A stretch of DNA of 64,000 nt from Aphanothece saxicola GSE-SYN-MK-01-06B (GTDB taxonomy: Bacteria > Cyanobacteriota > Cyanobacteriia > PCC-6307 > Cyanobiaceae), in assembly GCA_019359745.1 (NCBI GenBank), contig JAHHGT010000002.1:124001-188000 (forward strand). The letters run 5' to 3'. Made by a program: the position numbers and the translations under genes. The first letter of the stretch is position 1, and the number at the start of each line of letters is the position of its first letter. Below are positions 30,886-42,952 of the stretch, piece by piece. The notes beneath the pieces are model-generated. The model worked only from the letters and a program-made list of their open reading frames with translations. It was not told the DNA's origin and ran no database searches.

Positions 30886-30957
30886 GCCCGATTAGCTCAG
30901 CGGTAGAGCGCCTGCCTTACAAGCAGGATGTCGCTGGTTCGAAACCGGCATCGGGCA
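30886..30957 (+). tRNA. trnV: tRNA-Val (anticodon UAC)
   Basis: A 72-nt cloverleaf: acceptor GCCCGAT/ATCGGGC, D arm around TAGCTCAGCGGTAGAGC, anticodon stem CCTGC/GCAGG with loop CTTACAA giving anticodon TAC, T arm CTGGTTCGAAACCGG with GGTTCGAAACC, discriminator A, and no encoded CCA. It is the integration site of the adjacent element: its 3' 47 bases are part of the 49-bp attL copy. Confidence 0.97.
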
Positions 30958-30959
30958 TC
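30911..30959 (+). repeat. attL core: tRNA-Val 3' half
   Basis: Forty-nine bases running from the anticodon stem to two bases past the tRNA, identical to 42904-42952 in the same orientation. Identity breaks at once on both sides (GCG against TTT on the left, TCT against AGC on the right). This is what tyrosine-recombinase integration into a tRNA leaves. Confidence 0.95.
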
Positions 30960-30965
30960 TCTCTC

Positions 30966-31042
30966 AGAACCTCAGATCCCAGGCCAGATCCTCCTTTTCC
31001 CAAGGGTTCTCGGCCAAGGCTCCTTGAGACAGGAGCGGACAG
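30966..31042. repeat. Putative integrase arm sites, left end
   Basis: Two short motifs recur at the other end of the element in the same order: AGAACCTCAGATCCC at 30966-30980 (right-end copy 42761-42776 has one extra A) and GAGACAGGAGCGGACAG at 31026-31042 (right-end copy 42792-42808 differs at one base). They lie between the core and the integrase gene, where arm-type binding sites are expected. Confidence 0.6.
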
Positions 31043-31109
31043 AATCGGACGGATTTAGTCCTTATGGGCTAGCTTTTTACCCAGGATTTACCAGGGGCGA
31101 AAAGCTGCG

Positions 31110-32363
31110 ATGGCCTGCCCTCCGTGGCAACACGATCTGAGCCGCGCTTTCAAGCGGCATCGGGCGGGCCGCAGCGGCTGGTATCTCCAGGTTCACGGCG
31201 ACCGCCTGCGGCTGGTGAGCAAGGAGTTTCCCCCCCGTCCTGGCGAGCAAGCCGCCGCCGGACCGAAGCAAAGGGCGCTCACCTTGTCCACTCCGCCAGG
31301 GCCCTCTACGGCCGCAACTGCCTTGGCCGAAGCCTGCGGGGTTTTCGATGCCGTCATGGCGGCCAGCTGGTCCTGGCCTCATCCGGATGCCACACCAGCG
31401 GCGGATGACCCTGGCCACTTAGAGCCCCGCCACCTCCGGCGCCTGACCCGTCAACTGCGCGAGCAGTTGGTGGGGGAACAGATGCAGTCCGGCACCTGGG
31501 AGCGGACCTGGCAGCCTTACCTCGACCGGATGGCCACCACGGCGGAGGAGCGCAACTGGGCCGACGGTGAGTCATTCCTGGCCGCCTTTCTGCGGGGCTG
31601 GCCGCCAAACAGCCGCAGCCGGCAGATGGCCTACGACCGTGCCCGCAGGCTGTGGAATAAAGCGGGCTGGAGCTGGCCGGAGGCGCTAGCGCCGCTTCGG
31701 GGGAACGGGAAAGCAACAGCAGCCCCGCAGGGGGTGCGGAGCTTCTCTAATGCCGAGATCGAGCAGCTCCGTACTGCGATCCACCAGAGCCGTCTGACGT
31801 CGGCTGATGGCGTGGCATGGGACTGCATGATCGTGTTCGGAATACGGCCGAAGGAGCTGCAGGCCATGGAGCTGCAGCAACGCGAAGGGTTGCTGGTTGC
31901 GGTCGTCAGCCGCAGCAAGCAGACCAGCAGGGGCAGCAGCGGCGCCCGGATCATCCCTGCAGTGCCCCCTGCCGGATGGCCAGCAGACTGCCATCGTCTG
32001 CTGGATCGGTGGAGAAGCCACGGGCTCCCGCCGGCCCTGCTGGGCGTTCGATCCCCTGGGCAGGCTCTGACTCAGCAACTGCGGCGCCTGCAACTTCCCG
32101 AGGAGCTGACCAGCTACGGCCTGCGCCATGCGTTCGCGCTGCGGCTGGGCCTCGACCTAGGCCTGCACGTCAGGGAAGCCGCCGAACTAATGGGTCACTC
32201 CCCGGCGGTCCATCTGGCCACCTATGGCAGGCGTCTGGATGGACCAGGGCTGCTGGCGAAAGTGGAAGGTCTACTTTCTTCTCGCGGCAATCAAGCTGCT
32301 CAAGCGGGGACGTCAGACAGTCGAGGGGCGGCCCTGCCCAGGCGAGAAATGAACCTTGCGTAA
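31110..32363 (+). CDS. int: Tyrosine recombinase (element integrase)
   Basis: Integrates and excises the element at tRNA-Val. 417 residues: a long N-terminal DNA-binding region and a C-terminal catalytic domain with Arg I about R246 (IVFGIRPKEL), the lysine in RSKQTS, box II YGLRHAFALR (Arg II about R339, with Tyr in place of the usual first His), His about H363 (ELMGHSP) and the nucleophile Tyr about Y372 (HLATYGRR). The ATG at 31110 is the first in frame. It reads away from the tRNA, the usual arrangement. The family is the phage-type integrase; cyanobacterial islands often use such divergent forms. Confidence 0.9.
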   Translation: MACPPWQHDLSRAFKRHRAGRSGWYLQVHGDRLRLVSKEFPPRPGEQAAAGPKQRALTLSTPPGPSTAATALAEACGVFDAVMAASWSWPHPDATPAADDPGHLEPRHLRRLTRQLREQLVGEQMQSGTWERTWQPYLDRMATTAEERNWADGESFLAAFLRGWPPNSRSRQMAYDRARRLWNKAGWSWPEALAPLRGNGKATAAPQGVRSFSNAEIEQLRTAIHQSRLTSADGVAWDCMIVFGIRPKELQAMELQQREGLLVAVVSRSKQTSRGSSGARIIPAVPPAGWPADCHRLLDRWRSHGLPPALLGVRSPGQALTQQLRRLQLPEELTSYGLRHAFALRLGLDLGLHVREAAELMGHSPAVHLATYGRRLDGPGLLAKVEGLLSSRGNQAAQAGTSDSRGAALPRREMNLA

Positions 32364-41671: not shown

Positions 41672-42087
41672 GCCGGCACCTCCCAGCCCTTGGCGAGGCA
41701 GTGCCGCTGATACAAGGCCGCCACGATCCAGTGCGTCGGCCGGTAGTTGGCTGGCTCCTCCGTCCAGAGCGGTTCATCGGCCCATAGAGGCCTCACCACC
41801 ACAGGGCGCCGGGGCAACCTCCGCCGCTCCTGCCGGCTTAGGTGCCGGTGGGGCTTGAGCATCGCCCAGCCGTCACGGTCGCCCAGAAAAGCGTATTCCT
41901 GCCCGTCAGCGCCGGGACCGTGATCGCCTGGCCTCCTCGCCCATTCCGGGGGCGAGTGCGTGCTCCCCCGCCAGCACAGCACCAGCTCGGCACCGATCCT
42001 GCAGGAGCCGTCGTGATGACGGCCGCACGATGGGCACGGCCGACCCTTACCGCTGGCGGACCAGCGGGATGCGTTGGAGGTCACCAT
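41668..42087 (-). CDS. Primase-type zinc-ribbon protein
   Basis: 139 residues. The N-terminal SGKGRPCPSCGRHHDGSCRI (region) with a later LCWRG resembles the zinc-binding domain of phage and DnaG primases: CPSC, then a Cys pair about 10 and 20 residues on. No Toprim or polymerase domain follows; the rest is basic and Trp/Pro-rich. Coupled on both sides (TGATG from the RHH gene, ATGA to the RepA gene), so it probably works with the helicase in origin firing or priming. Confidence 0.65.
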   Translation of the reverse strand: MVTSNASRWSASGKGRPCPSCGRHHDGSCRIGAELVLCWRGSTHSPPEWARRPGDHGPGADGQEYAFLGDRDGWAMLKPHRHLSRQERRRLPRRPVVVRPLWADEPLWTEEPANYRPTHWIVAALYQRHCLAKGWEVPA

Positions 42088-42413
42088 CAGCGTTGCCCCC
42101 GTCCAACCTTGTCCTGAAGGAGCGTCCGCAACCCGTAGACCATCGCCAGCCGCATCAGAGCGGATCGACTCGCTCCCAGCTCTTCTGCAACTGCAGAAAT
42201 CTGCTCCAGCTCCTCCGTAGCGAGCCGCACTGTGATTGGCCGGCCAAGCCCACGCGGCAGTAGATCAAGCGGCGAAAACATTTGTCTGCGGGCCGTACTC
42301 GCTAGCTTGCCGGCGAACAGCGAGCTGGCATCAGCGCCGTTGTGCACAGGCCCGGACGACCGCAAGCATGAAGCGTGGCTGGTAGTTCCAGCGGCTTGAG
42401 TTGATGCCTTCAT
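42087..42413 (-). CDS. Ribbon-helix-helix DNA-binding protein
   Basis: 108 residues from MKASTQAAGTT. A disordered Ser/Ala-rich start leads to a CopG/MetJ-like C-terminal part: RPITVRLATEELEQISAVAEELGASRSALMRLAMVYGLRTLL (region), i.e. strand, helix, turn with Ser-Arg-Ser, helix. Probably regulates the replication operon or controls copy number. The start overlaps the previous stop as TGATG; an ATG 21 codons upstream is less likely. Confidence 0.7.
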   Translation of the reverse strand: MKASTQAAGTTSHASCLRSSGPVHNGADASSLFAGKLASTARRQMFSPLDLLPRGLGRPITVRLATEELEQISAVAEELGASRSALMRLAMVYGLRTLLQDKVGRGQR

Positions 42414-42634
42414 CAGCTCACACCCATGCGTTTGGTGCGCACTTTCAGTGCGTCCTGCACAGAGGCCGGATCCCATCGGAGCCTCGGCCGAATGGAACCA
42501 GTGCCCACTGCGACGAAATGCTTGCCGGGGCGAAAGAAACCTTCAGCTCGAAGCCGCTGAAGAGTCTTTGTACTTACCCGCAGAAGGCCTGCGAGCTCTG
42601 CTGTAGACGAAGAAAACTGAAGTTGGATCTCCAC
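42413..42634 (-). CDS. Excisionase/MerR-like helix-turn-helix protein
   Basis: 73 residues: STAELAGLLRVSTKTLQRLRAEGFFRPGKHF (region) is a winged helix-turn-helix like that of AlpA/Xis excisionases, and the tail RPRLRWDPASVQDAL is typical of these. First gene of the replication operon and close to attR. It could bend DNA in excision, or switch on the operon. The gene begins near 42634 with no obvious ribosome site. Confidence 0.7.
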   Translation of the reverse strand: MEIQLQFSSSTAELAGLLRVSTKTLQRLRAEGFFRPGKHFVAVGTGSIRPRLRWDPASVQDALKVRTKRMGVS

Positions 42635-42903
42635 GGGAATCGGTTGCCCGCCGAAGCGAGCGATCCCCCGCGTGGGGCAGCGACTGGAGTCAGGTGGCTG
42701 TCATACGGGGCTTAAACCCGTGCCGCGTGCGTACCCCGTAGGGCATTGGCGCTCCGCTACAGAACCTACAGATCCCTTGACAAGACGTCAAGAGACAAGA
42801 GCGGACAGGGAAGTGACAATGCCGTGATTTTACTACAGATTTACCCAGTCACCGACCGATCAGCCAGAAGCGACTGCAGCGCAGGCAGTCATGGCTGCAG
42901 TTT
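42635..42903. promoter_or_regulatory. Right-end control region with arm-site copies
   Basis: Holds the promoter region of the minus-strand replication operon, the second copies of the arm motifs (AGAACCTACAGATCCC at 42761-42776, GAGACAAGAGCGGACAG at 42792-42808), and a 15-bp inverted repeat TTGAC-AAGAC-GTCAA at 42777-42791 between them that could bind excisionase or the RHH regulator. Confidence 0.55.
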
Positions 42904-42952
42904 CCTGCCTTACAAGCAGGATGTCGCTGGTTCGAAACCGGCATCGGGCATC
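42904..42952 (+). repeat. attR core: 49-bp tRNA-Val fragment
   Basis: Identical to 30911-30959 over 49 bases. It has only the anticodon arm, T arm and 3' acceptor strand, with no 5' half, so it is not a working tRNA but the far junction of the element. Chromosomal sequence resumes after it. Confidence 0.95.

Follow-up and report, generated by a model that had tools for sequence, protein, structure and literature searches.

Tycheposons are picocyanobacterial elements that integrate at tRNA genes by means of a tyrosine recombinase, some of them carrying viral packaging genes, and Hackl et al. 2023 (Cell) reportedly consider them in part viral satellites. Phage-inducible chromosomal islands (PICIs) are defined by an integrase, a small regulator, a replication helicase or primase and a small terminase subunit (TerS) without the large one (TerL); the redirection of a helper's packaging by such a lone TerS is established satellite biology. 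Here we examine a window of 64,000 nucleotides, positions 124001-188000 of contig 1 (JAHHGT010000002.1) of Aphanothece saxicola GSE-SYN-MK-01-06B (genome G000), in which 11,993 bp lie between two copies of a 49-nt repeat at a tRNA-Val gene. We argue, with a probability of roughly 80%, that this element is a phage satellite. Feature coordinates below are those of the window.

PMC11389934 describes satellites that redirect packaging and places tycheposons among the proposed phage satellites; PMC10872708 gives tycheposons a size of 4-200 kb. Judged by described features, the elements studied here resemble tycheposons in their picocyanobacterial host, their tRNA site, their tyrosine recombinase (which the window element likewise couples to integration at a tRNA gene) and the packaging genes of some members; they differ in sitting at tRNA-Val or tRNA-Arg in freshwater-type genomes, in measuring 5-13 kb and in a TerS family that corresponds to phrog_34910. 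With PICI-type satellites the window element has in common an integrase, a small regulator, a replication protein and a TerS without TerL. The hosts differ, and neither a regulator pair nor capsid-resizing genes were identified here, no reference set for such genes having been used. Capsid-forming PICIs (cfPICIs) carry their own capsid gene, as do the relatives G115, G175, L192, L194 and L179, whereas none was found in the window element. In PMC10187409 a picocyanobacterial, tRNA-linked tyrosine integrase element is described that often carries a small serine recombinase; by that description it matches the window element in having both recombinases but lies at tRNA-Phe or tRNA-Cys in marine genomes rather than at tRNA-Val. 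Finally, cyanophages S-CBS1 and S-CBS3 have a RepA-like helicase and a capsid like that of G115, but are complete phages. The element would be a new lineage or variant among phage satellites of a known kind, not a new kind of element. Searches of an open-licence library gave nothing that joined 'Cyanobium' with 'phage satellite', and none of the titles listed there dealt with such elements in these hosts. A picocyanobacterial host, as supposed by an earlier note made from the sequence alone, is supported by the named relatives, 6/8 of which belong to Synechococcus or Cyanobium and 2/8 to uncultured cyanobacteria.

The element and its candidate small terminase

The integration target is an intact tRNA-Val(TAC) gene (30886-30957, +; ARAGORN). 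Its 3' half and two further bases form the 49-nt attL core (30911-30959, +), which is repeated exactly as the attR core (42904-42952, +). This is the longest exact repeat in 29001-45000, against a maximum of 16 nt in 20 order-1 Markov sequences; a search of the window that allowed up to 3 mismatches gave no further copy of either core half, nor a degenerate third att copy. The tRNA, the exact repeat and the chance controls support the integrative element and the boundaries that the earlier note had proposed. Its account of the two ends also holds: the tyrosine integrase (31110-32363, +; 417 aa; phrog_1 8e-8; PF00589 E 0.0026, below the Pfam cut-off) starts 152 bp past the tRNA, and an excisionase-like helix-turn-helix (HTH) protein of 73 aa is encoded at the far end (42413-42634, -), both genes facing inward. 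The two matches of the latter are weak (PF12728 1.3e-4, below the cut-off; phrog_66 0.0017); it is 99% identical to the copy in element G113 and has relatives in 13/13 other elements. The replication module claimed for the interior is represented by a RepA-like hexameric helicase of 538 aa (40055-41671, -; PF13481 6e-22; 27% to RepA of S-CBS3). The absence of capsid, tail and conjugation genes was likewise confirmed, in that none of the 20 interior open reading frames (ORFs) matched a capsid, portal, tail or large-terminase family of PHROGs at E<=0.001, and none matched a relaxase, coupling protein or conjugation family above the Pfam cut-off.

What the earlier note missed is a probable packaging gene inside the element. 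A 124-aa protein (33760-34134, -) has relatives in 29/299 other genomes of the host family, and divergent members of its family lie directly upstream of TerL. A search for TerL in 20 genomes or records returned seven places (one in G062, three in G102, two in G243 and one on contig 7 of G000), together with one weak partial match in the virus contig G318. In 7/7 places a divergent member of the 124-aa family directly precedes TerL on the same strand, and at all five junctions that were read (5/5) stop and start overlap or lie no more than 5 bases apart. Since the TerL genes of G062 and of the first G102 copy were found through this neighbour, 5/7 places are independent of the TerS family. This TerL matches the gene annotated as terL in cyanophage S-CBS2 (36.6% identity over 89%), and 0/7 of its places fall inside any of the 14 elements described below. 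A profile built from 8 element copies, with the TerL-linked copies left out, was run over 26,205 six-frame ORFs taken from the gathered loci and the window. Its 49 matches at E<0.01 were all either previously gathered copies of the family, TerL-linked copies or a single fragment of 73 aa. The structure model of the 124-aa protein (mean predicted local distance difference test, pLDDT, 78) has an N-terminal HTH followed by a helical hairpin, a layout known from small terminases. Because family members directly precede TerL in every one of the seven places, the 124-aa protein is very probably a small terminase, an assignment based on gene linkage rather than on function.

Gene neighbourhood alone decided this assignment, as searches by sequence and fold failed to name the protein. 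The window copy matched nothing in Pfam and PHROGs better than E 0.038, and a PDB profile search of it gave nothing below 0.12. Across the family, 15/28 members match phrog_34910, which has no assigned function. In the viral list of Foldseek, two matches labelled 'terminase small subunit' come 21st and 33rd (E 0.32 and 1.5), and the best VIA-align hit (Z 5.8) lies on the helical pair. Neither a tblastn search of two family members against 50,697 phage records nor scans of viral contigs with two family members found a relative. One candidate, S-CBS3 gp46, which had been considered as a TerS by position, was dropped; its sequence resembles, by eye, the minor-tail-family protein of G115.

Related elements, packaging genes and free circles

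Relatives of the window integrase form 20 near-full-length loci (50-85% identity) in 18/299 other genomes of the host family, partial or broken matches in G274, G035, G230 and G267 being left out of this count. Eighteen of the 20 lie directly downstream of a tRNA gene (tRNA-Val(TAC) in 6, tRNA-Arg(TCT) in 12), and in the stretch examined for the remaining 2/20 there was no tRNA. Starting from the integrase, RepA or the 124-aa family and then seeking copies of tRNA 3' ends, we delimited 13 related elements at tRNA genes, with att repeats of >=44 nt lying 5,336-12,810 bp apart; shorter tRNA repeats (15-23 nt at L090, L112 and L169; 17 nt at L111) were not used. These relatives partly use other integrases and other tRNAs: tRNA-Arg, Pro and Ala occur besides Val. 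With the window element they make 14, of which 14/14 encode a tyrosine integrase, 14/14 an excisionase-like HTH protein and 12/14 a member of the RepA family. This is a biased sample, some elements having been found via the TerS family and others via the integrase or RepA, and it includes two close pairs (G075/G123 and G198/G090).

The 124-aa family is found in 8/14 elements, and several of the others carry a different packaging gene. A TerS of phrog_57 is encoded in G226 and G243; that of G113 belongs to phrog_309 (1e-8) and is accompanied by a head-morphogenesis domain protein; and an HK97-type capsid gene occurs in G115 and G175, in G115 beside a gene for a minor-tail-family protein. Among these 14 biased elements, and within 25 of 40 PHROGs families, none had both the 124-aa family and another TerS or capsid. 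Relatives' ORFs were called with a custom codon model, by which small genes may be missed; the scans covered 86/87 ORFs of at least 75 aa (L104:7946-8182 left out) that lie outside the integrase, RepA, excisionase, 124-aa, F5 and F7 families, and the resulting tallies list 25 of 31 families for Pfam, 25 of 40 for PHROGs and 25 of 38 for a third tally. No PF05065 capsid match was present in the eight genomes that have the 124-aa family inside these elements. In 30 genomes chosen because they carry genes of the integrase or RepA type, 4/4 over-cut-off PF05065 matches have an integrase or RepA of these families no more than about 4.5 kb away; a fifth, in G115, is below the cut-off. Scanning viral contigs with the G115 capsid yielded no relative.

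Empty sites were sought as the earlier note had advised. For the sister element G226, 294/300 and 295/300 nt to the right of attR are identical to the sequence downstream of tRNA-Val in G175 and G208, neither of which has an element there, so that these are empty sites for the sister. Seven tRNA-Val loci of the genus (L157, L161, L163, L164, L165, L167 and L172) have no integrase or repeat in the DNA examined. A complete lack of empty sites, named at the outset as a finding against insertion, was therefore not what we saw; for the window element's own right flank, however, no exact empty site was found in 42 genomes of the genus, since a further variable segment follows attR. In a tree of 26 of the 28 integrases (L085 and L162 not included), the Arg label changes at least three times on starred branches, and G198 and G090, elements at the same tRNA-Val, have integrases that fall in a separate clade.

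Two IMG/VR contigs probably close on themselves, given their long end repeats. L192 has a 123-bp repeat and closes to 9,028 bp. Its genes code for an integrase (61.6% to that of G032), an excisionase, a primase-helicase of 860 aa and a capsid protein (phrog_617 1e-78), as well as for a short HTH protein weakly matching phrog_57 (4e-4). Upstream of its integrase stand 46/46 nt of the tRNA-Arg 3' end as found in G121, without the 5' half. Closed ends and a 3' half lacking its 5' partner mark L192, on sequence evidence, as an excised circle with attP, as expected for such a form. L179 (127-bp end repeat, 10,418 bp) encodes a RepA 53% identical to that of the window, a TerS (7e-17), a protease-capsid fusion (4e-65) and a ParB-like protein with an additional match to a portal family. 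It has no integrase of the window's family and is possibly a plasmid-like satellite. By contrast with these small circles, L190 (IMG/VR, 62,585 bp; a stretch of it is identical to L189) has a TerL (phrog_2 3.8e-37) and head and tail families, as well as an integrase 58% identical to the window's and 45/48 nt of a tRNA-Val 3' half that lacks its 5' half (attP). Its gene content identifies it as a temperate phage that has its integrase and attachment site in common with the satellites.

As to the type of helper, the resemblance of RepA (26-27%) and of the G115 capsid (25-28%) to the proteins of S-CBS1 and S-CBS3 would point to cyanosiphoviruses of that kind as candidates. PMC6157547 reports S-LBS1 as a freshwater phage with an integrase, similar to S-CBS1 and S-CBS3, and calls lysogeny apparently rare in unicellular cyanobacteria. 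Against the phage collection, the window integrase had no match at E 1e-5. Within G000 itself, contig 7 carries at about 21.9-24.2 kb (L211:13915-16187) the TerS-TerL pair counted above together with a sigma-factor-like ORF, recognised by eye; as the whole genome has no PF05065 capsid match, this is not a complete helper by that test, and possibly represents another satellite, a phage remnant or a transfer-agent-like locus. In G062 and the first G102 copy the TerS-TerL pair adjoins a long RepA-family primase-helicase, and none was found in the 10 kb examined for the other two G102 copies.

How the element may travel, and what else it could be

What characterises a phage satellite is a small mobile element without a full virion gene set, here of 11,993 bp, and a gene that diverts the packaging or capsids of a helper, here the TerS-family gene without TerL, predicted as such from linkage. 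A TerS gene without virus shell genes means that the element probably travels inside the particles of another virus, and we infer a helper, induction and encapsidation for the window element accordingly in outline. Upon helper infection or induction, the integrase and the excisionase-like protein would excise a circle at the 49-bp core, which the RepA-like helicase could then replicate. TerS might bind a putative site on the satellite DNA and steer the helper's large terminase towards it, so that helper capsids would be filled with satellite DNA. In the next cell the integrase would insert the circle at tRNA-Val, the 49-bp core restoring the tRNA. Exclusion and host fitness are possible roles of the cargo at 37-39.6 kb. 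On balance, we also favour the wider view of an undescribed lineage of satellites in freshwater-type picocyanobacteria. Its single packaging slot would be swapped among the unrecognised TerS family, other TerS types and an HK97 capsid gene, and its integrase and att site would be common with a temperate phage infecting these hosts; satellite and phage would then compete for one tRNA.

Several observations weigh against this interpretation. The window TerS shares just 14% and 13% identity with the TerL-linked family members in G062 and G102, respectively; the Foldseek search of its model gave no match at E<=0.001; and hhalign against one TerS of another type returned a probability of 1.1%. The element could be partly decayed, as its RepA, judged by length and eye, is without the long N-terminal part present in several relatives, and an IS200-like Y1 (HUH) domain protein (34934-35311, -; PF01797 2.7e-14) appears truncated, presumably stopping before the region where the helix with the catalytic tyrosine is expected. 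The copy in G198 (78% identity) shares this end point, suggesting that the protein is kept for a use other than transposition. A circular form was seen for the relative L192; the window element itself was seen neither as a circle nor inside a virion, and as IMG/VR includes cellular metagenomes, encapsidation of the circles is not proved by their presence there. No helper phage was pinpointed, and G000 has no PF05065 match.

The best-surviving rival, which we nevertheless consider unlikely, combines an island that spreads by other routes (vesicles, chance transduction or natural transformation) with a 124-aa HTH protein that acts as a regulator instead of a terminase subunit. Weak matches of 4/28 family members to the late activators of phrog_836 (best 0.0044) speak for a regulator, as does Mu C, a structural match of the HTH (Z 5.2 across 54 residues). 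What speaks against it is that in 7/7 places a family member immediately precedes TerL on the same strand. For the island itself one may cite G032:C11, where no packaging gene was recognised and the cargo includes a restriction-enzyme-like protein, and the vesicle traffic of tycheposons that Hackl et al. 2023 are said to have reported; other elements, though, carry TerS or capsid genes. The G032:C11 cargo at L097:8033-10798 is, from the tallies and its length, a 922-aa type IIG-like restriction enzyme.

A decayed prophage, stripped of its structural genes, is a very improbable source of the element. Such an origin would accord with the 62.6-kb virus contig L190, which combines TerL, head and tail genes with a 58% integrase and a tRNA-Val attP, and with the minor-tail-family protein beside the capsid gene of G115, but it is at odds with 14 elements of 5-13 kb that keep intact att repeats and the same small core, with the absence of the TerL described above from all of them (0/14) and of a large terminase or portal from 25 of 40 PHROGs families over 86 ORFs, and with the closed 9-kb circle of L192. 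Least probable of all, and scarcely tenable, is an integrated plasmid or mobilizable element (IME): a RepA-like helicase and a serine resolvase would suit it, as would a ribbon-helix-helix protein whose NikA-like match stays below the threshold (0.0034), but the relaxase that marks an IME, and a coupling protein, were missing above the Pfam cut-off from the 20 window ORFs and from 25 of 31 Pfam families over the 86 element ORFs. Of the three possibilities that the earlier note had left side by side, the phage satellite is thus much the best supported, whereas the plasmid or mobilizable element is disfavoured by the missing relaxase and by relatives with TerS or capsid.

If the 124-aa protein is a TerS, a likely function is given to an HTH protein family left without annotation in current libraries, and the element family hints at the genes that decide whether a satellite hijacks the packaging of its helper or supplies a capsid protein of its own. 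Delimited att sites, empty sister sites, a testable TerS and the circle of a relative make satellite transfer in these hosts directly testable.

Other genes and the DNA beyond attR

The right-hand operon runs leftward from the excisionase-like HTH gene through a ribbon-helix-helix-like regulator (42087-42347, -; start uncertain; just under the Pfam cut-off; 93% identity in element G113) and a 139-aa protein with zinc-finger-like cysteines (41668-42087, -; motif by eye) to the RepA-like helicase; a similar motif is seen, also by eye, inside the long helicase protein of some relatives.

At the other end, past the integrase, lie genes for a 178-aa membrane protein (32382-32918, +; by eye), the N-terminus of which has a 36% match to the G113 ORF region coding for a 400-aa head-morphogenesis-like protein, and for a serine recombinase of the resolvase/invertase family (32939-33592, -; PF00239 7e-40; phrog_125 5e-56). 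The left-hand block (35937-33760, -) comprises five genes, the 124-aa gene being the last before the serine recombinase. Besides the Y1 protein, it encodes a 199-aa protein of no named family (35338-35937, -) and a 54-aa short-repeat protein (34640-34804, -), both kept in G198 and G090, and a 163-aa protein of no named family (34137-34628, -) kept in G198.

Rightward from there, a 196-aa protein (36147-36737, +) bears a weak likeness to DNA polymerase clamps (phrog_947 E 0.015); it is 73% identical in G090 and kept in G198 too, and its structure model is unusable (mean pLDDT 35.5). A short protein of family F9 (36737-36967, +; start by eye), also kept in G198 and G090, overlaps the preceding stop codon. 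The cargo follows in a region of lower GC (53.5% at 37-39 kb): a 220-aa protein with no Pfam family above the cut-off (36995-37657, +), two small proteins with signal-peptide-like starts (37756-38145, +, signal by eye; 38318-38659, +, start and signal by eye) and a membrane protein with a coiled coil (39038-39607, -; by eye; alternative ORF 38902-39318). Before the latter lies the gene for a 58-aa protein of family F5 (38691-38867, +), which occurs in 4/14 elements.

The variable segment beyond attR begins with a stretch (42953-42981, +) that was probably left by a different type of element, from the arm on its integrase side, as recognised by sequence comparison with the G198, G090 and G005 elements (88-93% over 73-78 bp, core included). 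Host flank common to congeners resumes near 59.3 kb. The gene adjoining attR has its best relatives at 36-38% in 3/41 other genomes of the genus, and those of the radical-SAM-like gene next along reach <=39%. From reading the ORFs, 42953-59300 holds membrane protein, radical-SAM, EamA-like and caspase/CHAT-type genes, including two adjacent long ORFs at 50449-55523 whose products look, by eye, like a protease of the caspase type and a TPR-CHAT protein; the pair might serve defence or cell death. A foreign arm followed by host flank only near 59.3 kb points to an older insertion behind the element; the 12-kb element probably landed before this older, now integrase-less tandem insertion, and the island would then be layered. 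A similar layered pattern, with a second att copy, is present in G113.

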